A stretch of 64,000 nucleotides of DNA from Ascidia mentula (lineage: Eukaryota > Chordata > Ascidiacea > Phlebobranchia > Ascidiidae). The notes below the pieces were generated by a model. The model saw only the letters and a program-made list of their open reading frames with translations. It was not told the DNA's origin and did not search any database. The stretch covers positions 10,168,001 to 10,232,000 of the forward strand of contig OX387203.1 of assembly GCA_947561715.1 (NCBI GenBank), in the 5' to 3' direction. The first letter of the stretch is position 1. Every line of letters starts with the position of its first letter. Shown piece after piece: positions 3,101-59,700 of the stretch. A program made the position numbers and the translations under genes.

Positions 3101-4934
3101 CCTATCTCCTAGCTCTATTAGATTTTGCCATGTTAAGTCGTTTTTTTTCTTGTGAACCATTAAAACACAAAGGCAAATTTGATCATAGCTGTGTTTTTCT
3201 TGACCGTTTTACTCTGTTAAGCTAAGATATATTTCTCCCAATGACTAAAAAAATATGGCGACCACACTTCTTAAAAGAATCAAGCGTTTGTTTTACTATT
3301 GTATTCTTTCTCATTCCAGCAAGACATCGCATTTATTTGCGACGAGGTGCAGACTGGTATGGCTGTGACCGGCCGCTGGTGGGCGCACGAGCACTTCGGG
3401 TTTGAAAATCCTCCGGATGTGGTAACTTTTGCGAAAAAAATGCTGACTGGGGGCTACTATTTTGCTGACCATATGAGGTGGAACACTGTAAGTTGTTTGG
3501 TATTGGTTGTAGTATGTTGTTATGCCGTATCCCATTAAAATAGTGGTTTCCAACACGGGGTTTGCGGACCCCAAAGAAGCCCACAAAAAACTGTTTTTTA
3601 AACAAAGTTTCACTGACTACAAAGGTGGGAAACCACTTGATTTGTGTACCTAAATTATGGAACAACTCTATTGCTTTAAAAGGAGTTACTCATCTACGCT
3701 ATACGAATTTAGTAGTGGCTACTGTCGTATGACGCATGTCGTTGTGAAAACGAAAGCCGTTTCCAATAACTGGGGTTGATGTTACGTTTTCATCGATGCT
3801 TATCAACCTTATCCACTTTACTTAATAGTTTTTGTTTTATATCTATATACAATCTACAGAAAGCACTTTTTATGTTTCGTGCAAGGTTAGTCTTGACCCA
3901 ACATATTTCCAAACGTTTGGAAAAACTAATGCCCTGGTTTCGTTTGAACGCCACGCAAGCGAATTTTAATGTACTGCACCCACCTGAAAGCGCTTCTCGA
4001 CACACTGTTTGTAAATCACACATCTAAACATTAAAAGTGACATTTTTTACATTTAGGGGTACCGCGGTAACTAAAAAATTACAATGTAGACTTATCATAA
4101 AACAACTTTTGAAACCACATAATATGACCATTTTCTCGCAGGGCTTCCGTGTGTTCAACACCTGGATGGGCGACCCTGTCAAACTTCACCTTCTGGAGAA
4201 AACTCTCGAAGTTGTCGAGCGTGAAAAGTTAATGAAACAGGCTGAGCAAAGTGGGCAGCGACTCCAAGCGGGTTTAAGAGACCTTGAAAAACGTCATCCT
4301 GGAATAATGTATGGGACCAGAGGTCTGGGAACTTTTAGTGCTGTCGATATTTTGGGCGAAGGCAAAAGGGATAAAGTTCACCGGCAGTTGCTGCAGAAAG
4401 GTGGGTGATTTTATATGAAACGGCCATTTACGCAGTACATCAAAAAACGTAGCAAAAATTGACGACAAAATTATGCGTAAAATTAAAATACTGCTGTTCA
4501 ATGACACAGGTGTGTCTGAAACTTCTGCTAAATATGTCATTGTACAGGACCTTAGCTTTGAATTGAAAATTCAAAGTAGTTATCTCAAAGTATATTTGCA
4601 CCTGAGAATATATTTTTATTATTTTTATACAAAAAATTTAATAATCCCATAATGGTGCTGATTGTCTGCCACTATTTTTGAGTAGCTTTGGATGTGTCAT
4701 AAAGATTCGTATTTTATTTGTTTATTTTGGCTCTTTCTAAAATTATCAAGTGTTTCGGTGTGTCTGAACTTCAGCTTGCAGACGCTTGACATTGAAACGA
4801 TACAACTTTTAGGTGTGCTTGCTGGTCAGTGTGGAACGAACACTATTCGATTTCGACCTTGTCTGCTTTTCACACCGACCCACGCAGACATGGTGGTGGA
4901 TAGGCTTGATCAGACCGTTACTGAAGTGGCGTGA
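181..4934 (+). CDS. ABAT: 4-aminobutyrate aminotransferase, tandem copy 1 (5' partial)
   Basis: Mitochondrial PLP enzyme that transaminates GABA with 2-oxoglutarate to succinic semialdehyde and glutamate (family knowledge). Exons seen: 181-210, 334-451, 615-664, 1178-1420, 1581-1775, 2486-2638, 3320-3487, 4142-4400, 4813-4934; all phases close and the stop is TGA at 4932-4934. The first exons, with presequence and N-terminus, lie left of the window. Visible motifs: the CGSC cysteine pair of the iron-sulfur site in exon 1178-1420, the DEVQTG motif that holds the PLP ring, the [10 protein letters not shown] motif whose second lysine binds PLP, and a C-terminal [11 protein letters not shown] segment. 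Every exon has the same length as in copy 2, so the pair is a tandem duplication. No frameshift or stop is present, so it looks functional. The polyadenylation signal lies about 130 bp after the stop. Confidence 0.93.
1457..1551. repeat. 30-bp minisatellite in ABAT copy 1 intron
   Basis: A 30-bp unit beginning TGTAGTTTGTTTTCAATTAT is repeated at 1457, 1487 and 1517, with a fourth partial start at 1547. It lies in the intron between exons 1178-1420 and 1581-1775 and is absent from the same intron of copy 2. Confidence 0.9.
3542..3636. mobile_element. Short terminal-inverted-repeat remnant in ABAT copy 1 intron
   Basis: The segment starts AGTGGTTTCCAAC and ends with the near-complement GGTGGGAAACCACT, with a GCGGACCCC core. 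This resembles small hAT-type MITEs. No target duplication is visible, so it may be old or truncated. Confidence 0.4.
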
Positions 4935-5062
4935 TCTTGAAACGAAGTGAAGATAAGAAAGAAGTTTAATGTGTTGAAAATTGTTGCGGTGTACAAGAAG
5001 CGCTTGTTGTTGTTCACTGATCTGTACATTTCTGTTAATTTTCGTAGTGTAAATGTGTAGTC

Positions 5063-5068
5063 AATAAA
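5063..5068 (+). terminator. Polyadenylation signal AATAAA, ABAT copy 1
   Basis: AATAAA occurs 129 bp after the copy 1 stop codon and is the first such hexamer after it. Confidence 0.65.
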
Positions 5069-5762
5069 ACTGCCATAATTTTTGCATTCGTTGTTTTAAT
5101 AGTTTTTTTCCAAAAAACGGTGCTTTTGCATGAAGAATGTTTCGGTGAGAAGGAAATGTCATTATGTATAAATAACTTGTAACAAATGACAATTTGATAT
5201 GTCAACAAATAATTTCGCTGCTAATTAGCTTTTTGTTACCTCGAACATTGAATTAAACTTGCCCGTGAATCATATAATGACCATTGTGAAATTTTTGAAC
5301 AATAAATAATGCACTTTCGGCAGAAAAATTCAAAGCATTTTCGCCAAAATCTTTGCCGCTGGAATTTAAAGCTTGATTTGGGAAAATATGACGTCAGGGC
5401 TATATTGGTTTCAAAACATGGAGCATCGTAAACAGAAACTTCTCTACGCTCGAAGGTTGTTTTGAAGCGAGGAAGATGTATCACGTATTGCTAGGTCTAA
5501 TGTATAACAAGCAAATGCCTGACAGAACACGCCAGTGTGGTTGCTTTTCGCCTATTTACCAATTTCGCTGAAATACCAATCTCATCAGTATATAAATAGG
5601 TGCGTGAACAACATCTTGCAGCAAACACAAAGAGTTGCTTTGCTTGTTGTGTTGCGGCAGAGATTTTTAGCAAGAAATTAAAGCGAATATCGAATTAAAA
5701 TTGCAATTAAACATGTTCACTTCAATTTATTTTCGCATGGTAATTCATTTCTGTTAGACTTT

Positions 5763-6432
5763 ATTAAATTTTAATTGTTACTAGAACAACTTTGTGTCCA
5801 CGCTTCTGGTTTTAGAAAACATGTATCGCTTTTTATTAAAGCATCTTCAGTTCTACAAATAACATAAACAGAAAAGACATAGTTAAATGCTAAAATGATA
5901 AAACGATAAAAATTGGCCGAACAGAAGAAACCTCTGGTGCTAACATACTGGACGACGCTCTGAGCAGGTGATGCGAGTGACCTACTTTTTTATCACCACA
6001 GGCTCACATTGCTTAAACAGGCGAAACAACGATCAAAAGGTTATACGAGGACAAATAACAAAAATCAACATTCAAAAATTAATTTTACCGTCAGTTGCGT
6101 GAGCCCCGCCCATTTCATTTCATTTTTATTTTTTTATATGATTTCTTATTATAACCTTTTGATCGTTGTTTCGCCTGATTAAACAATGTGAGCATGTGGT
6201 GATAAAAAAGTAGGTCACTCGCATCACCTGCTCAGAGCGTCTTCCAGTATGTTAGCACCAGAGGTTTCTTCTGTTCGGCCAATTTTTATCGTTTTATCAT
6301 TTTAGCATCTAACTATGTCTTTTATGTTTATGTTATTTGTAGAACTGAAGATGCTTTAATAAAAAGCGAAACATGTTTCATAAAACCAGAAGCGTGGACA
6401 CAAAGTTGTTCTAGTAACATTTAAAATTGAAT
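5763..6432. mobile_element. Foldback element with 282-bp inverted arms
   Basis: Left arm 5763-6044 and right arm 6151-6432 are near-perfect inverted copies of each other, separated by a 106-bp AT-rich spacer. The arms include the matching pairs GATCAAAAGGTTAT / ATAACCTTTTGATC and GTTACTAGAAC / GTTCTAGTAAC. No long ORF is present. I saw no clear target-site duplication. It is most likely a non-autonomous foldback or MITE-type transposon. Confidence 0.85.
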
Positions 6433-6440
6433 TGATGGTT

Positions 6441-6504
6441 AACTTGTGTCACGTGAAAGATGTGTTGCTGGTTAGGTAGATTTCATGAAGTAAAAACATT
6501 TTAT
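6441..6504 (+). repeat. Dispersed repeat, copy 1
   Basis: The stretch containing TTGTGTCACG, GTGTTGCTGGT and AAGTAAAAACATTTT recurs in the same orientation at 17855-17918 in the first intron of POGLUT copy 2. It abuts the right arm of the foldback element, so the foldback may have inserted next to or into an older repeat. Confidence 0.65.
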
Positions 6505-6676
6505 TGAGACTTTACTAAGTTACATATAGGTTGTAAAACAGCATATGTGGCAAGATTGGTACGTTTTGTGCTGTACAATTAGTCTGTGTTGGTTATCCAA
6601 ATATGACTCTACATGTATAGGCTTATTTATAGCTAGACCGCTGTTATTGCAAAACGTTGCACAACTATTCAAAAAA

Positions 6677-9600
6677 ATGTCGTTTTGTGGCAAGATTGGG
6701 TTTTTATTTCGCCGTCACAAAAATTACGTTTATTTTCCAAAACGGCCAAGTAAGTATTCAAGATTTTTTATGATAAATCGCAGTAATTTGGCATATATGG
6801 CAACGCATGAATATACAATGATTTCAATTTTTAATGAGCAGGCACACAGGCTGCGCAGAGCGGAATGTTCCGAATACCAGATGGACCAATATTAAAAACC
6901 GATGTTCCTGGTCCAAAAACCAAGGTTTGCGAGACTGCGTTAGTAATATATTCTCAGTCAGCCCAAGATGTATTTTAGGATATACGTATATGTTACGTGT
7001 CACTAACTTTCCTTCGTGTATTTTAGGAATTAATTCGAGAAACTGACAAGATACAGGTAAACCTTTAATCATTTAATAGGTCAGAATAGTAAAAGCCTGG
7101 AAAAATTAAGTCGCATTGAAAAAAGGCCATCGACAGTTAAATAACACGAAATGATTTTCATTTTGCACGCAAAGTTGCATAAACAATAAACGTGATACCT
7201 AAAATGGCTTGGACACAAATAAAATCACTCGGCTTATCTTAAACTAGCGCCCATAAAAAAACGTGTTTTTAATCCGTAATTTCGGCTTTAGAAATGTAAC
7301 CATATTTTATGCGCACATTTATATGTTCATAGAATGTGGCCGTAATTTCACTTTTCTGCGACTTCGAAAATAGCCACGGCAACTACCTGGTCGATGCAGA
7401 CGGCAACATACTACTTGATTGCTTTCAGCAAATTTCTTCTTTGCCTTTAGGTAAGCTTGTGGCTCGAATTATAGGCTAGGCTTCTTACTATATACCCGAT
7501 CAAAAACACTTTTTTTTTTTTAGTAGGAATTAGTGTTGGGCAGGGCTTCTTAAACTTGGAGTCGCGAACCTTTGGGAATTTGCACGTCGAATTTTGTGGA
7601 TTACAAAAAGTAAACCACACAAAATTCGACATTTAACTGTATTGAGACAACCTCAAGACATGTTATGCTGGTTCACTTAATGCTGGTTTGAGATAAAAAT
7701 TATGTCAAAATCTGTTGTTTATAAAAATCAGATGTTAAACACGAAGAGCAGCGGAATGTTTTGTTTAATTAAAAGGGATTGCAATCAAAAAGTTTTGGAA
7801 AGTCCTCGTGTAGAGAAATTTGCTTCAACGTCCTTTCGAAAACTTTGAATCTGGAAACATTTTTGTGATTCTTCACAGTTTGAAGCATTTAAAACAACAC
7901 CAAACTAACCAAAGTATCACTATTTGGATAAAAGGCCTGACATAAACAATGCCACACACTAACATCTAGGATTCAGCTTGGCCATTGCTTGCATTTTGTA
8001 ACTACGTTAGTTTTGATACTCAATGAATGCAAAATTATGTTTTGTAGGCTACAATCACTCCGAGCTCCTGAAAATGTGCACCAACAATGCCATTAGGGTA
8101 AGTTTTGTATTCAACAAAAACCAGAACGATTTAAATAACTTGCTTTCTTTAATGATCTCAGCAATAAAACGAAGCTCATTAGACCTTCATTTACCAAAAA
8201 AATACTTTTGTTTTTAACGACAGTCGGTTATGGTCAACCGTCCGGCTATGGGCATGTTCCCGAACAGGGACTTTCCCTCGTTGGTTCAAAGAACTTTGAT
8301 CAAGGTGGCGCCACCTGGTCTGAAGCAAGTTGTCACCATGGCTTGCGGTAGTTGTTCGAACGAGAATGCCTATAAGTCCGTTTTCTTCTGGTACATGAAA
8401 AAAAAGCGGGGATACGAATTGCCACCGCGCGAAGACCCAGCGTACGATACCTGCATGATAAACAAGGTAAACGAATGAAAAAGTTTTGCTGGAACATGTC
8501 AACAAACTTGTCTTTGTTTTAGCCACCAGGGGCGCCAGAACTTTCAATTTTATCTTTTGAGGGGGGATTCCACGGTCGAACCATCGGTACTTTATCGACC
8601 ACTCACAGCAAACCGATTCACAAACTCGACGTGCCGAGTTTTGATTGGCCAATCGCTCCTTTCCCGAAACTCAAATATCCCCTTGAGGAGTTTGAGCGGG
8701 AGAATGCCGCTGAAGAGGTAATCTTTAACCGAATACGCTTTGTTTACCAGGCTCGTTTACCAGGTTTTGTTTACCAGGCTCGGTGTTTGGAAATTGCCGA
8801 AGATTTGGTTGAAAAATGGAAGTCGAAAGCTCCTGTTGCGGGTTTGGTTATCGAACCTATTCAAGCTGAAGGAGGTGATCGCCATGCTTCGGGGGACTTT
8901 TTCAGAAAACTAAAGAAAATGTCTGAAAGGGTATAAGTTGATGCAATAAACGGTTAACAGAACTTGATTTTTATGCACATAGAATGTGTACAATTATATT
9001 TTTTACGTGAGCAAAACCAGTATGAATAAGAACACTATGTTCATATTAAATGTGTATCGTTAACGTTTTCTGTATAATTAGCTTCGACACAACACAATTT
9101 CGACGATTTTAGGAAAAACTGCAGTCTAAAAACCAATAACAATTGTTTAGTGATTAAAATATGATCCTAAATATACAGTGATTGAAATGCGATCCTAAAT
9201 CTTATCTAAGTTTGTTTTGTTTTTAGCAAGAAATCGCGTTCATATGCGATGAAGTGCAGACAGGAATGGCTGTAACCGGCCGCTGGTGGGCGCACGAGCA
9301 TTTTTGCTTGGAAAATCCACCAGATGTTGTCACTTTTGCAAAGAAAATGCTTACAGGAGGTTTTTATTTTGCTGACCACATAAAATGGAACGCGGTGAGT
9401 GATATTTTTGGATATGTTCTGCTTTATTAATGGCACAAAACTTGGCGTGTGCTTTCTTAACTGTTTATGTATAGCCACTTATCTTGAATCCTCACCAGGT
9501 GCAGCTCCTCCAACAAGCTGTTCTTGTTCCGCCAGCGACTCGACGTATGTAGTCAATTAAACGTTTGTTCGCTGGGTATTTTGTTTAAATTACAAAGAAA

Positions 9601-10349
9601 ACGCCATCACAGTTTCTTAAGAAATTTATAAAAAAAAAGTAATTCAAATGTGTAGAAAATGTCTGCACAAAAAGACATAATATTCATTTACAAGAGAGAC
9701 ACAATGTAAGTTACATCAAGCGTGGTTTTTCAATCTACACCGAAGTTTTTGCTGAGAAAACCTGGTAAACAGTTTTGTGTACTACAATCGTGTTCTCAGG
9801 GCTACCGTGTACTGAACACATGGATGGGCGACCCAGTAAAACTACACCTTCTGGAGAAAGTCATTGAAATCACGGAAGGCGAGAAGTTGATGAAACAGGC
9901 CGAAAAAACTGGAAAATGTATGGTGTCTGATTTGAAAGAAATGGAAAAAAAATACCCAGGGTTGGTGTACGGGGCCAGAGGTATTGGAACCTTCTGTGCT
10001 GTTGATGTTGTGGGCGATGGTGTAAGAGACGAAGTGGTCGGGAAACTCTTACAAAAAGGTAAAATGTAGGCTAAATAACACCAACAAATCCAGTTAAACA
10101 ATGTTTTGTCGTTTTTAACTCTATCCTTTTTGTCTAAAAACGTAGCAATCTAAGCATTATTGAATTCATTGATACCCACTGGTTGTGTTTTGTTCAATAA
10201 CATTGATGCTGGGTTGTCCCACAACAGGTGTTCTTGCTGGCACTTGTGGAACGCAAACCATCCGCCTACGCCCCTGTCTGCTTTTCACACCTCGTCATGC
10301 AGACATACTGATCGACAAACTTGATCAAGTATTCCAAGATATCTACTAA
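6677..10349 (+). CDS. ABAT: 4-aminobutyrate aminotransferase, tandem copy 2 (complete)
   Basis: Exons 6677-6749, 6842-6924, 7027-7056, 7333-7450, 8048-8097, 8224-8466, 8523-8717, 8778-8930, 9227-9394, 9800-10058, 10228-10349 give 497 residues with TAA stop, close to the roughly 500 of vertebrate ABAT. The start at 6677 was chosen because the exon ends in phase with the acceptor at 6842 and gives a basic, acid-free N-terminus ([19 protein letters not shown]) like a mitochondrial presequence. Next comes the family motif [13 protein letters not shown]. Cofactor residues: Cys159 and Cys162 (ACGSC), Asp323 (CDEVQTG), PLP lysine Lys355 (FAKKMLTGG). The intron at 8718-8777 is only 60 bp and has three repeated acceptor-like sequences. 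The exon 2 donor is GTTTGC, a weak site. Expected mitochondrial GABA catabolism; intact. The first exon is the least certain part. Confidence 0.93.
8741..8777 (+). repeat. Triplicated acceptor-like TTTACCAG in ABAT copy 2 intron
   Basis: TTTACCAG occurs three times, with AG at 8749-8750, 8762-8763 and 8776-8777, the first and last followed by GCTCG. The last is the acceptor matching copy 1. Use of the first would add nine in-frame residues but leave a 33-bp intron. Confidence 0.75.
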
Positions 10350-17464: not shown

Positions 17465-20400
17465 ATGATTTTGCATCAACTTATAGTTTTAGTTTGTGTT
17501 ATATTTTCAACGTTTGCTTCTGAAATTAACGTTTCAAACACCAGAGTTTGGGGACCAGGATTAAGGGGAAAGGCAAATTTACCAGTGCGATATTTCCACA
17601 TAGAAGCATTTGACGACGAAAACAGGCCGTGAGTTCTTTTTACCGTAAAATGCTTCTCGATCCCTCGCTATTCTTCATTTCACTGTTATGTCGTTTTGAA
17701 ATTGTTAGAGCGTCGCAAGCTTACTTCCATAGCGTTTGCAGGGTATGTGCGTTGATCATTATACCTAGGCCAAGCGAATCCTTAAAAAAGGTCAATATTT
17801 TTATGTGCGTCGTTATAACATTTTCAAATTTTCAAATATTTGTAATTGACATTGAAGTTTCACTTGTGTCACGCCAAAGACGTGTTGCTGGTCAGGTTTT
17901 GATTTCGTAAAGTAAAAACATTTTCATTTTGGAATGAGTGCGTAATTTAAATATAATTGGCAATTAGTTAACGCAGTGATAAATCATACTGGAAATTAAA
18001 GCCACAATCCATATCTGAATTTCATCATATTATTCTACACAATATTAACTTCAAACAGTTTCCAGTATGTGATACCTTTATAGCTAGCCCAGCATAGTTT
18101 GTATCGACCTAAACACACAGTTTACCCCAATATTTGTGAACATTCCCGCTGAATTATTTCTTGCTTAAAAAGTTGAATTATGTTTGCTTTCATGTTACAG
18201 AATTCTTGAAGATCTCGGTCACGATGCATTTGAGATGGAGCTTTCAACTCCAGCGGGAACAGACGTTAGATCTCGTTCCAGCATTTTAAACCTAGGAAAT
18301 GGAAGCTACATTGCAAGATACATAATTCATGATTACACAGGAAAATTGAATATATCACTCACACACAAAGGACAAACTGTATCTGGATTTCCCTTGACTA
18401 TGGAAGGTATGGGTTTGTGGGCGTCCATTAATCGATACACTTCGCGTGATTTTTAGTTTCCCAAACCAAAATTCGAATGTTCTTTGTTCTCAAACCTAAA
18501 GGACTTTAATAGTTGCGTCTTGTGTCTTTCGATTTGACGCTACCGCTGTCAACTGACTGTAAGACTTCTGTTTGTAGTAGCCTTGCACAAACATATCATT
18601 TGACCCCGCTAGTTTGTCTTTTTTTTTGTTCCTCAAATACGGCTCCCTTGAGAGCATAAAAATATGTCGGTGTAAGGTCCTCTTGTCGTGGGGGGGTTTG
18701 AGGGGAAACCTGCTCCCTCTACTTGAGGGCCCGCTTAAATATATCCGATAGTTTGTTGTTAATACAATATAATTTTTCGGTTATTCGTTGCCAATTAGCT
18801 TTCTTGAAAACCAACGAGAGGGTATATATACTGATACCCACAAGACAACCATGAAATAAAATAGATTTCCATGTTTTAAAGCCCCCAAGATTATATGGGC
18901 CAGAGGTCCCTGAAAGAGTCTCGCATCGGATGATTTGTCCCCTTAAGAAACTTGCTTGAAAAAAAGGTCTTTCTAATTTCATATTTCACATTTTCTCTTA
19001 CCAGGGGTGCGTGGCAATGACTGCAACTGTCCGATTAGCCAAAAACAATGGATGGAATCTGTTAGCTGCCCAAACTTTAGGCAAATTCATGATGATTTGA
19101 AGGTTCACAAAGTTATTGACTTGTCGAACTTGTATGAGCGAATGGAGGGAAGATTTGGAAAGTACTATTCTGTGTGCAATTACGTTGTTGTAAGCAATCA
19201 GGTAATATTCGTAGATGACCCAACTCACTTTTGAAAACGAGTCAATAAATCGGTATTTTTCATAGTTACAATACTAGAGAAAAGCAATTGACAAAATGCT
19301 AATACGACTTACTCTATATTTTATGATAAACGACCCAAAGGTTGATATACCGCATGTATTTTTTCTGTGCCTATAGGTATATCGGAAATGTTTCGGAAAA
19401 AATGTTGGGTTTAGAAAATTCATGGACGCTGTGCTTCTAAACTTGGTTGGAAAGATACAACTGCCAGATATTTCGTTTTTTCTCAATCTCGGTGATTACC
19501 CTGCTGAAATCTCAAAAAGGGCTCCTCTTCCTATTGTGTCATGGTGTGGTTCCGATTACTCATATGACATCGTACTACCAACATATTATATCACTCGTTC
19601 CGTCCTAGAAATGATGAAAGGGTCAGAATTATGCAACATTTTCATTTTTACTATATGTTTTCTATTTATGTTGAGAAGTTTTAAACAACGATGTTCAAGG
19701 AAAAAGCTGTATTGCTTTGACTGTTTTTTTTGAAAATGTGTTCAATTTTGTGGATTCGAACATGCATGTCCATGAAATATCCTTGAATCTACATAGGCCT
19801 ATTACTTTCCTACCCCCAAAATTAGGTGCGTTAATGTTTTTAGTGTTTCAATGGATGTTTTCACTGTACAAGCAAACGCAAAACCAAGGTGGAATGCCAA
19901 GAAAGACATGGGCTTTTTTCGGGGCCGAGACAGTCGCCGGGAACGACTTAATCTGGCTGCGTTGAGTTTAAATCGCTCTGATATTCTGGACGCAGGAATC
20001 ACTAGGTACTTCTTCTTCCCACGTGACGACGAGAAATATGGTCAGCCGACCCAACTTGTGCCGTTTTACGACTTTTTCAAGGCAAGATTTGGAGAAATTT
20101 ACTAATATTTGCTGCGATTGCCCACAAACACAACACGTGGATGCTGTTGTTGTTAACTAAGTGTTTGTTTTTCAGTATAAGTATCAGTTGAATGTGGATG
20201 GAACAGTGGCCGCTTACCGCTTTCCATACCTAATGCTCGGCAACTCTGCAGTGTTCAAACAAGATTCCGAGTATTACGAGCATTTCTACAAGGAAATGAA
20301 ACCTAACAAGCATTACATACCGCTTAAACATGACCTTTCTGACGTCATAGAGAAGTTGGAATGGGCGCGGGCCAATGATGAGCAGGTAAGTGGTCACGTT

Positions 20401-20880
20401 AAAGAAATGATTGTGAGGAAAAGTTGGAAAAACATTCATAATGATATACCAGGTTCGACGAATTCAAGAAGCTGGGACGAAACTTGCAAGGAAAATACTC
20501 ACGCCTGCCAATGTTCTATGTTATCACGTGGCCCTGTTTAAGGTGGGAAATTAACACGCAACTTTTTTGTTGTTGTTAAATCTATTTAAATCGTACTCTT
20601 CCATGGAATTTTAACCATTCTGTCAATAATAAACCTAAACGGCTGAATTTTATTTCAACAGATCACTTGTATTATATTTTGTTTAGGCATATGCTCGAAA
20701 GCAGAGTGGCGAAGTAAAAATTTTAGAGGGCATGGAAAAACTCGAGCAACCTTTTCGAGAAACTTGCAAGTGTGAATTTGCTGCTGAAAACACGGTTTGT
20801 GAAAGGTTATTTGCATTTGACTGTTGTGCTTGTACTAAAAACCTGTTGCTCTTATCTTGCAGGTCAAGGATGAGCTTTAA
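17465..20880 (+). CDS. POGLUT2: KDELC/POGLUT2-3-type protein O-glucosyltransferase, tandem copy 2
   Basis: Exons 17465-17628, 18201-18406, 19005-19201, 19377-19621, 19844-20081, 20176-20385, 20453-20542, 20687-20794, 20863-20880 give 491 residues. Signal peptide about 1-20, filamin-like domain ([16 protein letters not shown]), then CAP10-type glucosyltransferase domain ([37 protein letters not shown]). The final 18-bp exon encodes VKDEL-stop, a canonical ER-retention signal. Exon 19377-19621 (245 bp) equals the sum of two copy 1 exons (78 + 167 bp), so copy 2 lacks that intron. The exon ending at 20081 is followed by GCAAGA, a GC donor; copy 1 has GT there. Exon 20176-20385 is nearly identical to its copy 1 counterpart although flanking exons have diverged. 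Intact and probably functional. Confidence 0.93.
17855..17918 (+). repeat. Dispersed repeat, copy 2
   Basis: Matches 6441-6504 in the same orientation; lies in intron 1 of POGLUT copy 2. Confidence 0.65.
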
Positions 20881-22126: not shown

Positions 22127-37586
<15,460 letters not shown>

Positions 37587-48926: not shown

Positions 48927-48940
48927 TACCCAGCAAACAT
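48927..48940 (+). repeat. Left terminal inverted repeat of the 7.2-kb element
   Basis: TACCCAGCAAACAT, exact complement of 56080-56093. Confidence 0.8.
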
Positions 48941-49178
48941 CAAACGTGGAAGGAACGTTTTTGTTACGTTGACTTTTGGTTGAAACGTTCATTAACGTAA
49001 ATCGAACCAAAAAATTTTTACTGGTTGCATGTTTTCCAAATATTAACGTTGATTCTACGTTTCCTTTCTACGTTTTTTAAACCAACCAAATATCAGCGTT
49101 GAACTAACGTAGGAAATGAACGTCTTCTAAACCTAACCTAATTCCAACGTTCTTTTGTTGTTAATCGTAAAACGTTGT

Positions 49179-50110
49179 ATCAACCAACCAAAACCTAACG
49201 TTTATTGAATGTTGTTATGATAACGTTATAATAAAGAACCAAACATCAACGTTATTCTTATGTTATCGGAAAAACAAAAAATCAACCAACCAAAACCTAA
49301 CGTTTATTAAACGTTGTTATGATAACGTTATAATAAAGAACCAAACATCAACGTTATTCTAATGTTATCGGAAAAACAAAAAATCAACCAACCACAACCT
49401 AACGTTTATTGAACGTTGTTATGATAACGTTATAATAAAGAACCAAACATCAACGTTATTCTAATGTTATCGGAAAAACAAAAAATCAACCAACCACAAC
49501 CTAACGTTTATTGAACGTTGTTATGATAACGTTATAATAAAGAACCAAACATCAACGTTATTCTAATGTTATCGGAAAAACAAAAAATCAACCAACCACA
49601 ACCTAACGTTTATTGAATGTTGTTATGATAACGTTATAATAAAGAACCAAACATCAACGTTATTCTAATGTTATCGGAAAAACAAAAAATCAACCAACCA
49701 AAACCTAACGTTTATTGAATGTTGTTATGATAACGTTATAATAAAGAACCAAACATCAACGTTATTCTTATGTTATCGGAAAAACAAAAAATCAACCAAC
49801 CAAAACCTAACGTTTATTGAATGTTGTTATGATAACGTTATAATAAAGAACCAAACATCAACGTTATTCCAATGTTATCGGGAAAACAAAAAATCAACCA
49901 ACCAAAACCTAACGTTCATTAAATGTTGTTGTGATAACGTTATAATAAAGAACCAAACATCAACGTTATTGTAATGTTATCGGAAAAACAAAAAAATCAA
50001 CCAACCAAAACCTAACGTTTATTGAATGTTGTTATGACAACGTTATAATAAAGAACCAAACATCAACGTTATTCCAATGTTATCGGAATGACGAAAAAAT
50101 AACCAACCAA
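49179..50110. repeat. 102-bp minisatellite array, about 9 copies
   Basis: Unit starts ATCAACCAACCAAAACCTAA and recurs at 49179, 49281, 49383, 49485, 49587, 49689, 49791, 49893 and 49996, then degrades near 50098. Each unit holds three ACGTT-type motifs including GATAACGTTATAA. Copies differ at only a few positions, so the array is recent or homogenised. Looser AACGTT copies extend left to about 48945. Confidence 0.95.
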
Positions 50111-50619
50111 TGCGTAACATTTATAGAATGTTTGTTCAACAATTGCGCGTCAATGTTAACGCAACAAGGACGTTGACTTGACATATAAATAAATAAATAA
50201 TTAATTGTGAGTATTATAGCAGGTTAATGTTATCATAATTAAGAGGTTTATCTCATACCATGTCTTTTCAAATCAGAATGACTGTTTGATACCAAATAAA
50301 AAGGTGTTGTGAAATATCATTAAAGTTTGAGGCACAAAGTCAAATAGCAAACATAACTTTTTTCATTTGTTGGCCGAAAAGCGTTTCACATGGGAATAAC
50401 GTATTATCAGTCAAAATCTGACAGTTGTTTACGCTTCAGATATTTCTTTGCCCAACGTCGACCGACTCCCACGGCAACAATTCTAGTACAATGGAGGGGA
50501 CAATTTTTTAGGGTTGCTATTCATCAGGAAATTTTGCTTTAATTGAAATCAAACTAACGCCTAAAATACAAACATTCCCATTACAGCGATTACATATAGG
50601 CATGCATCATTCGTTTATA

Positions 50620-52757
50620 CTGATTGAAAACAATGTTAAAATAATAATAGGTTTGCTATCGACTGGCACATTGATATGCTTGGTCGCTTGTCTCTCAAAG
50701 GCCAATTGAAATAAAAGGAATCGGGTTTTACAGTTCAACTCCGAATAGTGTGTTGTAATACTGTGCAAAATTTTGTTTCGATTGAAGTTGAAACAAACGA
50801 ATGAGAGACTGACAACTTGATTGAACACGAAGGCATGACCCGCGCGGTTTGGTATCTACTGTTGGCACATAAAAATACTTGGTCGCTTGGATCTTAAAGG
50901 CCAATTAAAATAAAATCAATCGGGTTTTACAGTTCAACTCCGAATAGTGTGTCGTAATACTGTGCAAAATTTTGTTTCGATTGAAGTTGAAACCAACGCC
51001 TGAGAGACTGACAACTTGATTGAACGCAAAGGCACGACCCGCGCGGTTTGGTATCTACTGCCGGCAGGTCAACATGCTTGGTCGCTTGTCTTCCAAAGCC
51101 AATTGAAATGAAAGAAATCGGTTTTTGCTGTTCAACTCCGAATAGAGTGTTGTAATACTGTGCAAAATTTTGTTTCGATTGAAGTTGAAACAAACGCCTG
51201 AGAGACTGACAACTTGATTGAACGCGAAGGCACGACCCGCGCGGTTTGGTATCTACTGCCGGCACGTTAACATGCTTGGTCGCTTGTCTTTCAAAAGCCA
51301 ATTGAAATAAATGAAATCAGGTTTTACAGTTCAACTCCGAATAGTGTGTCGTAATACTGTGCAAAATTTTGTTTCGATTGAAGTTGAAACAAACGCCTGA
51401 GAGACTGACAACTTTATTGAACACGAAGGCACGACCCGCGCGGTTTGGTATCTACTGCCGGCAGGTTAACATGCTTGGTCGCTTGTCTTTCTAAAGCCAA
51501 TTGAAATAAATGAAATCGGGTTTTACAGTTCAACTCCGAATAGTGTGTCGTAATACTGTGCAAAATTTTGTTTCGATTGAAGTTGAAACAAACGAATGAG
51601 AGACTGACAACTTGATTGAACGCGAAGGCACGACCCGCGCGGTTTGGTATCTACTGCCGGCAAGTTAACATGCTTGGTCGCTTGTCTTTCAAGAGCCAAT
51701 TGAAATAAATGAAATCGGGTTTTACAGTTCAACTCCGAATATTGTATTGTAATACTGTGCAAAATTTTGTTTCGATTGAAGTTGAAACAAACGAATGAGA
51801 GACTGACAACGTGATTGAACACGAAGGCACGACCCGCGCGGTTTGGTATCTACTGCCGGCAGGTTAACATGCTTGGTCGCTTGTCTTTCAAAAGCCAATT
51901 GAAATGAAAGAAATCGGTTTTTGCTGTTCAACTCCGAATAGAGTGTTGTAATACTGTGCAAAATTTTGTTTCGATTGAAGTTGAAACAAACGCCTGAGAG
52001 ACTGACAACTTGATTGAACACGAAGGCACGACCCGCGCGGTTTGGTATCTACTGCCGGCACGTTAACATGCTTGGTCGCTTGTCTTTCAAAAGCCAATTG
52101 AAATGAAAAAAATCGGTTTTTGCTGTTCAACTCCGAATAGAGTGTTGTAATACTGTGCAAAATTTTGTTTCGATTGAAGTTAAAACAAACGCCTGAGAGA
52201 CTGACAACTTGATTGAACGCGAAGGCACGACCCGCGCGGTTTGGTATCTACTGCCGGCAGGTTAACATGCTTGGTCGCTTGTCTTTCAAAAGCCAATTGA
52301 AATGAAAAAAATCGGTTTTTGCTGTTCAACTCCGAATAGAGTGTTGCAATACTGTGCAAAATTTTGTTTTGATTGAAGTTGAAACAAACGCCTGAGAGAC
52401 TGACAACTTGATTGAACACGAAGGCACGACCCGCGCGGTTTGGTATCTACTGCCGGCACGTTAACATGCTTGGTCGCTTGGCTTTCAAGAACCAATTGAA
52501 ATAAATGAAATCGGGTTTTACAGTTCAACTCCGAATATTGTGTTGTAATACTGTGCAAAATTTTGTTTCGATTGAAGTTGAAACAAACGAATGAGAGACT
52601 GACAACTTGATTGAACACGAAGGCACGACCCGCGCGGTTTGGTATCTACTGCCGGCACGTTAACATGCTTGGTCGCTTGTCTTTCAAAAGCCAATTGAAA
52701 TGAAAGAAATCGGTTTTTGCCCTTCAACTCCGAATAGAGTGTTGTAATACTGTGCAA
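50620..52757. repeat. 199-bp satellite array, about 10.7 copies
   Basis: The anchor CGAATAG/CGAATA recurs at 50742, 50941, 51139, 51338, 51537, 51736, 51935, 52134, 52333, 52532 and 52731, a period of 199 (once 198). Each unit contains the GC-rich palindrome CCGCGCGG, within ACCCGCGCGGTTTGG. The period is not a multiple of three, so the overlapping minus-strand open frames shift from unit to unit and are not genes. The last unit breaks off near 52757. Confidence 0.95.
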
Positions 52758-52924
52758 AACTTTTATGATGTGATAGTGGAGAACCCTTTCCAAAATTCTA
52801 TATACCGTAAACGTAACCAAACTGCTCCTGTATGGCTATATCGAAATGGGACTAAATCAGTTGTTTTTCGAGATTTGTAAAGATTAAATTGTCATATACG
52901 CAATACTTCGTCCTATACAAAACC

Positions 52925-54065
52925 CAGTTCGAAAATATCACATTCCTTGCGACACCACACACTGTGATTAATTGGGCTCTCCACCGCGGACCTCGCTACG
53001 CTTCGTCCCTTGTGGATTTGCCTTAGCGTGTGGTCGAAGACCTCAAAGGCGACAACGGACAATGGACAGCGCACCACATACCTCACGTTTTCGCATAAGA
53101 AAATTTGCACGTTGACTTTCCTTGTTGTGCAGGAAACAACATCGTTTGATTGCAATAACAGTTTTTGTACCGCATTTTTGGTTTTATATCTAGCAAACGA
53201 TTAGGACATGGTTAGTAGCCTATCATTTATTATCGTATCTTCCTGTTTATGTTACACTGAATTTAAGGGATCTGGCCCGTCGCGGCTTGTGGGAGTGAAG
53301 CCGGTTGGCGGGAATGTTTTTCAAAGTACTGTTGGGTTCCTCTCGGGAGGGACATTATTGATTTTGCTTATGAGTCAAAGTTATGGTTAGCCTTAACCCT
53401 TTCGTAAAATAATTTTTTAGCAGAATAAATCCAATTGTCATTTAAAAAAATAACTATAAAAATTAGAAACTTGCTTTAATAATGACCTAAAAACACATCG
53501 TGCTTAAAGCTAGCCAGTGCGTTTTATTTTCACTTTTTGAAGTCAATTGGTTTAGTTTTTCAACAAGTTGTATAACGCATGTTAATCTTAAAGTTTGTCC
53601 CAAGAAAAAACTCTGTCAGCGTACGCAAGTGTACAAAGAGTAATTGCGGGCCACCGCAAAATAGTTTGTATTTGTGCTTTTTATTGACTGCAGGTTTTAT
53701 TTAGAAATACGAACCAGGGCCGGTCATTTATACGGAGCCATACACGCATGAATTCTATTTTCGAGTTCGACTAAAAGCCATTTCGACAAATTCTGTATTC
53801 CTTGCGACACCACACACTGTGATTAATTGGGGCTGTCCACCGACCTCGCTATAGTTTGTCCCTTGTCGATTTGCCACAGCGTGGGGTCGCAAGTCGACAA
53901 CGCACCGCATCACATATTTGCAAAAGAACATTTGGCGCTATCTGGGCTTGCCGCGGCCTGTGGGAGTGGAGCCGGTTGGCGGGAAAGTTTTTCAAAGTAC
54001 GGTTGGATTCCTCTCAGGAGGGATATTATTGGCTGCGAGTTAAACTGATGGTTAGCCTCAAGTCA
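52925..54065 (+). repeat. Direct duplication inside the 7.2-kb element
   Basis: About 52942-53395 and 53795-54060 share ATTCCTTGCGACACCACACA..., then a GC-rich block with GTGGGAGTG and AGCCGGTTGGCGGGAA, ending TTATTG and ATGGTTAGCCT. The first copy carries extra sequence in its middle. No homology recognised; the GC-rich block could be an old exon or promoter. Confidence 0.75.
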
Positions 54066-54184
54066 TGTCAGAAATAATATCAGAGTATACCATAGCATAA
54101 CCTCAGAACACATAATTTGTTTAGTGCTATATAGCAAATTTTGTGTTTTGTAATGACTGTTGATTTACACAGGTTGTTTTGCAG

Positions 54185-54397
54185 CTTAAAGTAATTTGCT
54201 GGTTAAAGTTGACAATAAAAGTTCCATGGCAAATGAAAGACAATGTGATCCGCTTGAGAAAGTAAGTAAATCATTTTATATTAATGCACAGATTGTTGTT
54301 ATATTTTCATATGTTTTGCAGATTAATGACCAATGAAGCAATGGCACAACTTAGTATGAAAGGAAGCCATGGAAAAAGAACTTTCACCACAGCATAA
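54185..54397 (+). pseudogene. Two-exon relic resembling the C-terminus of a DUF4806 protein
   Basis: Exon 54185-54261 (after TTTTGCAG, before GTAAGT) and exon 54322-54397 (after GTTTTGCAG) join in phase to give about 50 residues ending in TAA. The joined end reads VIRLRKLMTNEAMAQLSMKG then HGKRTF. From memory this matches the RRILRKLMTNELA...GKKAF signature of DUF4806 proteins, which are common, multicopy genes in invertebrate and fish genomes and often repeat-associated. Upstream exons were not found, so I call it a remnant, possibly cargo or the last exons of the element's own gene. A chance match is possible but the splice sites and phase agree. Confidence 0.5.
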
Positions 54398-55039
54398 CTG
54401 TATAAAGTGGTGAGTGAAACATCAACATTTCAGCTATGCTCAAGGGACAAACCAAGGTCCATCACTATTAGTTTGGGGTTGTTCAAATAAAATTGCTTTT
54501 TGAGAAACCTTAATAGATCATTAGATATTTGCTTTTAGATGTTTTCTAATACAACTTGGTGGGGTTGTGGCAATAAGAAAAATATGTTTTAAAGAAAAAA
54601 AATCTTTTAACAACCTATATGAAACACGCTTTAGTATGTGAAATATAGCAGCAGTTCTTTGGCAGAACAACAACCATGATTTGTTTTGTTACAAAAAGTA
54701 ATGCGAACTTTTTACAGATTACATGATGAGGTGCAGCTCAACCACCAAAAAAGAAATAAACGCTTATTGGCGGACTGCTTTCAAGTTCGCCCCGTTTAGA
54801 AAATCGTCTTTGTGTGCATCTTCAGACGACTCGTTGTCGCAATAAGGTTATATGTGTTTGTATAATGTATTCTAATAAATACACTTCTGGAAATATTGTG
54901 TACCTATGATGAAGCTCCAATGTCAAGGTGCAGAGTTTTAACTCAACAGCTATTGTGTATTGGTTATCAGTTTGCGTCTACTACTGGGAAAAGGTTTTAC
55001 GTTTTCAGAACAAAACAAACACAAGCTGAGCAACAAACG

Positions 55040-56040
55040 AAAACTTGAAAGTTACGTTAGCTCAGCAACGTTCTACAAACAAACAAAAAACAACGTTAAG
55101 AAAACGTCCATCGAGTTACGTTGATCCAATGTTGCCCAATTTACGTTAACAAAACTTTAAAAATCAACCTCGTGGTAACGCGATAACAACGTTATGATTC
55201 TAATCAGATTTAAACGTTTAAAAAACCTCCATCAAAACACGTTGATGTAATGTTGCTCAAATTACGCAAAAAAAACTTCCAAAATCAACCTCGTGGTAAC
55301 GCGATAACAACGTTAGGATTCTAATCAGATTTCAACGTTTAAAACACATTCATCAAATTACGTTGATGTAATGTTGCTCAAATTACGTAAAAAAAACTTT
55401 CAAAATCAACCTTTTGGTAACGTGATAACAACGTTATGATTCTAATCAGATTTTAACGTTTAAAAAACATTCATCAAATTACGTTGATGTAATGTTGCTC
55501 AAATTACGTAAAAAAAACTTTCAAAATCAACCTCGTGGTAACGCGATAACAACGTTAGGATTCTAATCAGATTTAAACGTTTAAAAAACCTCCATCAAAT
55601 AACGTTGATCCAATGTTGCTCAAAATACGTTAAAAAACCTTTCAAAATCAACCTCGTGGTAACACGATAACAACGTTATGTTGCTAATGAGATTTAAACG
55701 TTTAAAAAACCTCCATCAAATAACGTTGATCTAATGTTGCTCAAATTACGTTAAAAAACCTTTCAAAATCAACCTCGTGGTAACACGATAACAACGTTAT
55801 GATTCTAATGAGATTTCAACGTTGAAAAAACATTCATCAAATTACGTTGATCTAATGTTGCTCAAATTACGTTAAAAAACCTTTCAAAATCAACCTCGTG
55901 GTAACACGATAACAACGTTATGATTCTAATGAGATTTCAACGTTGAAAAAACATTCATCAAATTACGTTGATCTAATGTTGCTCAAATTACGTTAAAAAA
56001 CCTTTCAAAATCAACCTCGTAGAAACAAATTTTCAACGTT
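55040..56040. repeat. 121-bp minisatellite array, about 8 copies
   Basis: CCTCGTGGTAAC (or variant) recurs with a 121-bp period from 55169 on. Each unit contains ACGTTGAT, AACAACGTTA and CAACGTT-type motifs. It sits next to the right terminal repeat, as the 102-bp array sits near the left one. Confidence 0.93.
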
Positions 56041-56079
56041 GTGGTTAGAACCAATTTCATACGTTACTTAAACGTAAGA

Positions 56080-56093
56080 ATGTTTGCTGGGTA
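56080..56093 (-). repeat. Right terminal inverted repeat of the 7.2-kb element
   Basis: ATGTTTGCTGGGTA, exact complement of 48927-48940. Confidence 0.8.
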
Positions 56094-56737: not shown

Positions 56738-59700
56738 ATGGCGGATGTTCAGACCAAGTTTAAAGCAGCTTTGGACGTTATACAAAGTTTGCCAAAAGAT
56801 GGTAAGCGGATGTATTTTTGTGTTTATGGTTTGTCTTTTTGTCTGAATTTTTTACTTTCCCTGTGTAGTTTTCTAGTTCTTGATGACTTATGAACAATAC
56901 AATATAGGCACTGGACACTGAGCATGTAGCTCTAAAAGCCATATGACTTTATATCTACTGTGGCCCACAATGAGCCAGATCGATATGCAAATGCACTTTT
57001 GTAAAATTTTGTTGGTAAGGCCAAGGCATAATAAAATTAACCAATATATCAACATATGTCATGGTATATTTGCATCTGCAAGTAGGACACCCTGACTTTA
57101 AAATGACTAATACAATTTATTTTGTCACTGCTTTCACATTGGCATTCACTTACGTTTGTTTTGTGCAATGGTTTGTCTGCAAACTTTTCTTCTTATCCTG
57201 TGCAAATTTCAACAAAGAATTATTTTTATTTTAGGTCCATATCGGCCAGCTCCCAACATGCTGTTGATGTTTTATGCTTACTATAAACAAGCAACTGAGG
57301 GGCCCTGCAACAAACCTAAGCCATGGGCGTTTGATGTAATCAACAAAGCAAAATGGGAAGCATGGAACAAACTTGGGAGCATGACCCAAGAAACAGCTAT
57401 GGACAATTATGTCCAAGAGCTGACGAAAGTAAGTATACGTTTTATTAACTATACAAACAATAATATTCATTTATTTATTTTGGTGAAAAACATTGCAGAC
57501 GTGTAATTTATTTTGCATTGGGTCTGATTGAAAAAAAATTGTGTGCGGAGGATATGTCTTCCTTGGAAGATAACAAAAAAGCTATGGCAATAGCATACAA
57601 AAATTTCCATTCAACTCACTAACTTTCTAGCCTTGTGCATGGGTCATATTCCTAAACCTAACATGCAGGTCATTTAGCCCAATAAAATAAACATTGCTGA
57701 AAGATGTGACTTTATTCATAAATAGGTAACATATTTAAAAACTGTCAAAATGTCTTGATGTGCTGTAATAATGTTGTAGTACTGTGATATTTTAAATGCA
57801 AGTTTTTTTTTTAACTATTTGCCAGTTTTTGAGATGTAGTTCTAGAGGTATATACTTATTTTAGTGCTGCATATTTCTCAGTTTATAAACTTTGTGGCCA
57901 ACTACTACATAAAAAACAACATTCTTAATGGCTACCATGGGTTGTATTATACAACTAGAAGGCCACATTATTTGCTGTGTTAGGGGGTGTGAATTTAAAA
58001 TTTGTGCAACACATCAGGTCATGCAGAATTCAGCTCCACTTTCAGATGATCAAGTCAGTATATTGTGTTTTTGCTAGATTAGATACTGGGTTAAGCTGTG
58101 ATTACATTCTTTTGTGAAATGATAAGCAGGCAATTGGGAAGCCCACATTTTACAAATGATTAGTCGTAATTGCTTTTTGTATGTGAATGCACATAAAGCA
58201 CATTTTCATTATTGTTAAACGCAATAATTTTATGATTATGTTTGACAAATCTCAATTGTTATTTGGAAGTATGCATGCCATGTATGTATGATTGAAGTCA
58301 ATTTTTGTTTTAATTCATTTTTTTGTGTTGGTTTCAATTGTAACTGAAAACAATCTACACTGAAATACAATATGTATTGACAAAATGTGATTCAAATTCT
58401 GTGAATTATTCATTTAATTATTTGTGTGTGTTTTCTTGTTTTTCATGCCTTGCGGAACACAGTGCACTTGTGTGACTTGGTTTCGAAAATTTTATATTTG
58501 TACACATATATTATTTTTGTTCATGTGCAGATCATTGAGGTACTTCCTTCAACGTCTGAGTCAACAAACTTTATCCAAACCCTTGGAAATTTCTATGAGG
58601 TTGTGGACGCGAAACACCCAGAAGTCGAAAAGTTAAAAAGGAGATTTGCAGACGGTATGATGGCAAAAATTGGCGGAACATGTTTAAGTTTGGAAGCTAA
58701 AGCTTTTAGGCTGCTAGAGTGCACAATTACCAAACTTTGTTGTAAGGATGTTTTAATTTATCAAATCTGTGATCCTGTCTGTCAACTTTCTGTTTTCTAC
58801 TTTGTTTATAATTAAGACAAGCATTGCTTACATTGGTAGTTAAATTCACTGTTTTTGTCTAATTCACATAACAGGGAATGTTTACATGTTTTTAGAATCC
58901 AATGGTGACCAGCCCATACCACATTTAAATGGAAATCATGTGCACACTAATGGTGAGTATAGTTATAACAAGATATTTGAAAAACAATTACAGACCAACT
59001 TGTTGCATTTGTGTAGAACTGTTTTCTGCAAAGTGTTAAATACTGGAACATCTTAATTTAAATGCCAGAGCTATAAAATTGCCAGATAACAGCCAAGGAG
59101 TTTTTCCTGACCGCCGAGACAAACTTATACTTTGTTGCTAATGGGTTGTTTCTCAACAATTACACAAAATGTTTGTGTTTTATGTGGATTTTTTTCATCA
59201 ATAATTAAAAGATGCAAAGATAACACCTGGTTTTAGCTCTATATAGTTGCAATACTTGCTATATAGTTGCAATACTTGCTATATAGTTGCAATACTTGCT
59301 ATATAGTTGCAATACTTGCTATATAGTTGCAATGTATTTATGGCAAAAATATTATGAAACAAAGTTCAAAGAATTGCTTTAAAAGATAAATACGCTACTT
59401 TTTGCAAAATTTTAAGGCTCGGCTATTTTTGAAACATTGTAAACAATGGCTGTTGCTCATTTACTGATAATTTATAGTGAATCATCTCACTTATGCACAT
59501 AGTTTTATCAAATTTCCTAATAATCATGTTGCAACTCAGGCCATGTTCCAGCTGAAAAGGAAATGACAGACCATGTGACAAGTGACATGAATATCAACAA
59601 ATCAAGCGAGGAAATTGTCGAAGAAGATGAAATCACACATGTCGTTGATGTGAAGAGCGAAAGCGACGATGAGTTTTGTGACACCTCAGCCGACGTTGTC

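Follow-up and report, generated by a model that had tools for sequence, protein, structure and literature searches.

The subterminal repeats of plant CACTA (En/Spm) transposons are bound by accessory proteins. In the portions of the cited papers on which we draw throughout, plant CACTA elements such as 'Jozin' of Chenopodium have CACTA ends and a 3-bp target site duplication (TSD) (PMC8978399, PMC7320549). The TRC elements, SmTRC1 of Schistosoma and others from Aedes, Tribolium and Ciona, have CCC ends and a Transposase_21 protein; a 2-bp TSD flanks 7 of 14 copies, and SmTRC1 also bears a 3′ tandem repeat (PMC1636069). Tandem arrays in transposons are already known from Tetris of Drosophila virilis (PMC4079207), oyster Helentrons (PMC7492417) and Chenopodium CACTA elements (PMC8978399), and a search of the literature on ascidian satellites and transposons yielded a paper on a Merlin transposon. 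Here we describe an array-bearing element of the ascidian Ascidia mentula, found in a stretch of 64,000 nucleotides (the window; assembly GCA_947561715.1, contig OX387203.1, positions 10,168,001 to 10,232,000 of the forward strand). The element occupies window positions 48929-56091 (7163 bp). It is very probably a non-autonomous animal CACTA element (TRC, EnSpm) that is moved by a Transposase_21-type enzyme supplied in trans and whose subterminal repeats have become satellites.

An initial annotation of the window had proposed a mobile element with satellites just inside exact 14-bp inverted termini. Fourteen letters do match inversely, but the outermost two on each side are a TA target duplication (48927-48928 and 56092-56093), leaving a terminal inverted repeat (TIR) of 12 bp. 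The left TIR lies at 48929-48940 on the plus strand (CCCAGCAAACAT) and the right TIR at 56080-56091 on the minus strand (read on the plus strand as ATGTTTGCTGGG). We searched the genome (195.8 Mb, 79 contigs) with the 200 bases at each end; only the best candidates were scored in the searches, and copy counts are lower bounds. The left end gave 19 matches and the right end 108, and both ends co-occur in at least 13 copies, window included, at 13 different sites (6954-19101 bp). All 13 carry CCCAGCAAAC at both ends and share one order of parts: left end, 102-bp array, spacer, 199-bp array, module duplication, 121-bp array and right end. Further end matches resemble fragments (for example L057, L058, L060, L061 and L062). 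The proposal of a mobile element is supported. Neither of the outcomes named as contrary to it, ends that never co-occur and arrays alone at unrelated loci, was observed.

The two bases flanking the TIRs agree in 10 of the 13 copies, reading AA four times, TA and TT twice each, and AG and AT once each; the TA-specific duplication that had been supposed is not supported. Left and right flanks taken from different copies agree in 26 of 156 pairs, each of five outward shifts gives agreement in 1 of 13 copies, and flanks of 3 bp agree in only 1 of 13. Empty sites, which the annotation had suggested looking for, were found for both copies tested (C71b and C69a, both sitting inside other repeats), and they back the 2-bp length of the duplication. 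For C71b, the site at C2:19228419-19228595 aligns over 177 bases on 177 at 97% identity with a single AA at the junction; a second match is 80% identical and shorter than the query, hence gapped. For C69a, the junction is spanned by all 41 matches listed (40 of 126 candidates scored), and the one empty site that was read has a single AA, while the flank of the filled site is without one nearby base. Together, the agreement of the flanks and the single dinucleotide at empty sites show that the element inserts with a 2-bp duplication.

Two of the copies are themselves interrupted within their 102-bp arrays. One holds an 11-kb insertion (L042-L043, about C1:5626486-5637606) made mostly of two foreign tandem arrays, one of 190 bp (28.8 units) and one of 77/154/231 bp (about 4.3 kb); given this composition, it may be a second array-carrying insertion nested inside the first element. 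The other holds a 0.83-kb insertion (L051, about C71:19626527-19627354) with inverted ends of the CCGCATATCAGTA type and TTA on either side, Harbinger-like by eye.

The window copy and its 12 counterparts, hereafter family 1, have relatives in the same genome. Family 2, with ends of the form CCCAGCAAACACACAACG, was recovered by a pattern search and by end searches, the latter giving 36 left and 47 right matches that include more distant relatives and array pieces. These make up 15 left-right pairs of 1070-13520 bp, with the terminal bases present on both sides in 14; in the exception (C2:5238037-5241968), the right match halts before the end. The copy that we read, C1:8917676-8925180, has an AA TSD and a left array of 71-bp units (16.9 units), followed by a relative of the family 1 spacer mid1, a 195-bp array, a single copy of the module and a right array of 133-bp units (2.3 units). 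The 195-bp array is 74-79% identical to the 199-bp array of family 1. This copy has the same three-array plan as family 1, with different end monomers. A 570-amino-acid open frame on the minus strand of the family 2 195-bp array (L063:3-1712) is probably due to chance, because 195, unlike the 199 of family 1, is a multiple of three. Family 3, of which we read the element at C2:12624939-12634000, shares its terminal 10 bases with family 2 and has a GA TSD, a left array of 71-bp units (41.5 units) and a right array of 133-bp units (2 units); we looked for a relative of the 199-bp array in its right half and saw none.

Family 3 also carries a transposase gene. Its frame spans 634 amino acids in the translated part (654 open), and a homology search at E ≤ 0.001 gave 1667 relatives of the protein (120 listed), among them Ciona proteins that are 44% (P0012) and 57-59% (P0112) identical. 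We assign it as a transposase because its aligned homologues match Transposase_21 (11 of 19) and DUF4218 (14 of 19). Invariant acidic residues D200, D275 and E515 in the alignment are candidates for a catalytic triad. The closest PDB structures to a model of P0012 (predicted local distance difference test score 83.5) are RAG1 and Transib, with 11 matches at E 1e-7 to 1e-4 and template modeling scores of 0.28-0.48. Searching the genome with the family 3 protein gave 73 matches (best 70 of 303 candidates scored). Three elements contain transposase matches flanked by an end on each side: C2:12624939-12634000, C67:17433736-17440682 and C70:14288989-14297718, where the match is split into three adjoining pieces. 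At C52:7348725-7357630, a transposase match has a left end on one side and, on the other, a match to the right array that breaks off before the terminal bases. At C52:16873491-16875362, a match adjoins a left end. A second frame of family 3 resembles DUF4806 weakly (E 7.6e-4, 20.2 bits against a cut-off of 25) and is a candidate for the accessory-protein frame that goes with animal CACTA elements; family 2 has weak collinear traces. A literature search found no report of EnSpm elements with DUF4806.

Family 1 itself appears to be non-coding. None of 41 transposases queried matched its copies up to E 0.01, and the family 3 transposase gave no convincing match to its interior (best E 1.3). Eight of the 27 listed interior frames were scanned against Pfam, with zero matches up to E 1. 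Substitutions between the copies of the module are not clearly biased by codon position, numbering 6, 5 and 9 in the three phases of 73 positions each. In the transposase comparison, the scan of 8 frames and the substitution phases, a coding interior was thus not found, and the protein relic of the initial annotation was not confirmed. Comparison with RNA families returned only two matches, each far under its gathering score. The window copy, in which no transposase was seen, is non-autonomous.

The ends, the TSD, the empty sites and the transposase genes between such ends in the genome point to cut-and-paste movement, which would be carried out by a Transposase_21-type transposase from relatives with similar ends; one of the enzymes described above would then act on the window family. 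The element shares with TRC a CCC terminal core (the Aedes end is CCCAGTCAAC), a 2-bp TSD and Transposase_21 in related elements (PMC1636069). Its TIR begins with CCC, and short direct and inverted repeats occupy its subterminal zones, with inverted arms both between the end zones and within them. Transposase_21 was found in elements with similar ends and not within the window copy. Several observations weigh against this classification. The flanking dinucleotides disagree in 3 of the 13 copies, no transposase was seen within the window copy, a Pfam scan of the family 3 protein by itself gave nothing up to E = 1, and most of the 73 transposase matches lie away from the ends that we found. Additionally, the plant hallmarks are absent: the ends read CCCAG rather than CACTA, and there is no 3-bp TSD.

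Because the TSD is 2 bp long, we first considered an origin among PIF/Harbinger-ISL2EU (PHIS) transposons, an animal group with 2-bp TSDs. A duplication of this length that is mostly A+T would suit such an origin, but ISL2EU elements have AT TSDs and usually GG ends in the available portion of PMC4482050. Moreover, none of 124 DDE_Tnp_4 matches (best 150 of 199 candidates scored) falls within a paired element by coordinates, whereas CACTA-type transposase matches do. These transposases contradict a Harbinger/ISL2EU origin, which we regard as extremely improbable. Helentrons are rolling-circle elements, and Helitrons and Helentrons have neither a TIR nor a TSD; the element described here has a 12-bp TIR and a 2-bp TSD. 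A foldback element of the Tetris type needs long terminal inverted repeats, and the TIR here is 12 bp.

Between the TIRs of the window copy, the parts described next are all on the plus strand. Tandem Repeats Finder (TRF) confirmed the three arrays of 102, 199 and 121 bp that had been annotated. A non-array, ACGT-rich left end (48941-49178), 98-100% identical to the other 12 copies, is followed by the left subterminal array (49179-50132; 102-bp unit, 9.3 units) and by a spacer, mid1 (50133-50664), which is partly related to family 2 (81% over 237 columns). The internal array (50665-52764; 199-bp unit, 10.6 units), to which the 195-bp array of family 2 is related, precedes the two copies of the module, the first apparently non-coding (about 52931-53400) and the second (53771-54110) with relatives in family 2 and in other places. 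They form the direct duplication noted at the outset and are 82-84% identical where aligned. The right subterminal array (55092-56020; 121-bp unit, 7.7 units) completes the series.

The arrays change in size among otherwise similar copies. Full units located by alignment, after those less than 93% aligned were dropped, numbered 279 (102-bp), 159 (199-bp) and 82 (121-bp), and the 13 copies hold 6-50, 3-22 and 4-10 of them, respectively. Outside the arrays, the copies diverge by 0.19-3.52% (mean 1.65%). The window copy and C2a, which are 0.29% apart, have 9 and 20 units of the 102-bp repeat and 9 and 22 of the 199-bp repeat, and C73b and C2a, 0.35% apart, have 3 and 22 units of the latter. Unit-number difference and divergence correlate with a Spearman coefficient of 0.44 for the 102-bp array and of -0.05 and -0.03 for the others, the pairs not being independent. 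The large size gaps between near-identical copies suggest that array length would change faster than point mutations accumulate. Such shifts may arise when units recombine or slip during replication, either in the course of transposition or in place.

Sequence turnover differs among the arrays. Divergence is lower within than between copies for 102-bp units (0.026 versus 0.030) and for 199-bp units (0.052 versus 0.060), and in both cases none of 500 label shuffles was as low. The 121-bp units show the opposite, with divergence within copies (0.099) exceeding that between them (0.090). They are alike by position across copies instead: first units differ from one another by 0.037 and from other units by 0.131, and last units are likewise similar. 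This likeness at the same end, along with the higher divergence within copies, indicates that the 121-bp array is passed on in register, with occasional change.

The AACGTT richness ascribed to the ends is borne out by the distribution of ACGT. In the window copy, the end zones contain 34.3 and 34.8 sites per kb, compared to 1.8-4.1 inside the element and 3.0 in the window outside it. Across the three families, the six end zones range from 34.3 to 53.2 per kb and the interiors from 1.2 to 4.1, so that ACGT is about tenfold concentrated near both ends; the internal 199-bp array has no such enrichment. Spacings between sites cluster at 11-13 bp and multiples thereof, with a pooled value of about 11.8 bp (95 spacings) that none of 300 random placements matched in strength. 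The best period is 13.1 in family 1 (n=21) and 11.3 in families 2 and 3. Because the period differs by family and two of the families (2 and 3) are relatives, we claim the spacing only as about one helical turn. The 71-bp units of families 2 and 3 are identical at 47 of 71 positions in the best rotation, compared with no more than 36 in any of 2000 shuffles, and the letters common to both cover 3 of the 4 ACGT sites that the unit of family 2 contains.

These sites could be functional. By analogy with CACTA elements, it is plausible that the arrays are bound by the transposition machinery, and the ACGT-rich end repeats may be subterminal binding sites that were multiplied into satellite arrays. 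Within 121-bp units, ACGT cores are less variable (0.009) than positions outside the sites (0.069), and 4 of 120 circular shifts are as low. The 102-bp units count against binding, as their cores are not conserved (0.029 versus 0.016; 85 of 101 shifts as low) and one site switches between ACGT and ATGT. With conservation in one unit and not in the other, the case for binding sites is good but mixed.

Alternatively, the arrays may be neutral, that is, unselected tandem duplications in a non-coding element whose ACGT sites were inherited from an ancestral end sequence. Variation in the 199-bp array is as broad as in the 102-bp array, with no enrichment of ACGT, the cores of the 102-bp units are not additionally conserved, and internal arrays are known in other transposons. 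Neutrality accounts less readily for enrichment at the ends of three families despite differing monomers, for the ACGT sites shared by the 71-bp units, for 121-bp cores that are nearly invariant despite their CpG content, and for the 41.5-unit array just inside the left end of an element that carries a transposase. We consider neutral arrays a reasonable possibility, though not the expected one. It is also possible, and we suggest this tentatively as somewhat doubtful, that the subterminal zone is a length-tunable platform, in which ACGT sites are spaced by about a helical turn and families swap the monomer while keeping the sites and the plan. The transposon would then continually make satellites, and array length may set competition for transposase. 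The internal 199-bp array may be a passenger or have another role.

A third account is that independent satellite DNA was captured by the transposon, as has been proposed for a CACTA element and a satellite array in Chenopodium (PMC8978399, in the portion available). Three places within 87 kb at C73:5699624-5786508 match the family 2 133-bp right array without the terminal bases, which would fit such a source, and these pieces are possibly array fragments freed from an element. Of the 108 right-end and 121-bp matches, 12 fall at 6 places beyond the 13 copies. Three of these places include right-end sequence, and the other three consist of array fragments, one of which is beside a relative of the module. 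All 150 matches listed, of 295 for the 102-bp unit, fall within copies (where we counted 279 full units), as do all 150 listed of 302 for the 199-bp unit. Among the matches listed, in assembled contigs, none of the 102-, 199- and 121-bp monomers was seen as a free array, and the suggestion that the element seeds dispersed satellite DNA is not borne out by them. The constant position of the arrays in 13 copies and the different monomers at corresponding places in the family 2 and 3 copies read also argue against capture, which we judge unlikely.

Taken together, these comparisons place the element beside TRC with clear differences: the Ascidia repeats are kilobase arrays near both ends as well as internally, and no transposase was seen in the 13-copy family. 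It resembles plant CACTA elements and 'Jozin' in its subterminal direct and inverted repeats and in a satellite array inside the element near the 3′ end; in the Chenopodium elements, one array is described as captured or possibly generated and another satellite as derived from the coding region of tnp2, neither stemming from the subterminal zone in the portions available (PMC8978399, PMC7320549). Tetris differs in its long foldback inverted repeats, its TSDs of 8-10 bp and the occurrence of its repeats in longer satellite-like arrays as well (PMC4079207). The likeness to Crassostrea gigas Helentrons is that a non-autonomous element disperses satellite-like arrays (PMC7492417). What differs is the combination of arrays in both subterminal zones with an internal array, a plan shared by copies of two families whose end monomers differ, and, in the same genome, a relative that carries the enzyme and has a big array inside its left end. 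We did not find this combination in the literature searched.

The rest of the window contains several other features. About 1 kb past the right end of the element is a frame with an acyl-CoA-binding (ACBP) domain (57111-57503), and a 20-bp tandem repeat (59239-59333; 4.8 copies, 100% matches by TRF) lies beyond it. Class-III aminotransferase frames span 4028-10066, with the same domain part at 4028-4405 and 9710-10066, perhaps a gene duplication. Glycosyltransferase-90 frames occur at 19797-20538, and the minus strand has a matrixin frame at 26138-26473.

In a single genome, these elements show a route to new satellite DNA, along which short repeats of transposon ends would grow into arrays and be carried to new places by transposition. 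Because arrays of variable size lie near the element ends, each jump would spread ready-made satellite-like repeats. The 13 near-identical copies and their enzyme-carrying relatives provide a natural test of array length against mobility, and the same copies allow the rate of array change to be compared with that of point mutation.

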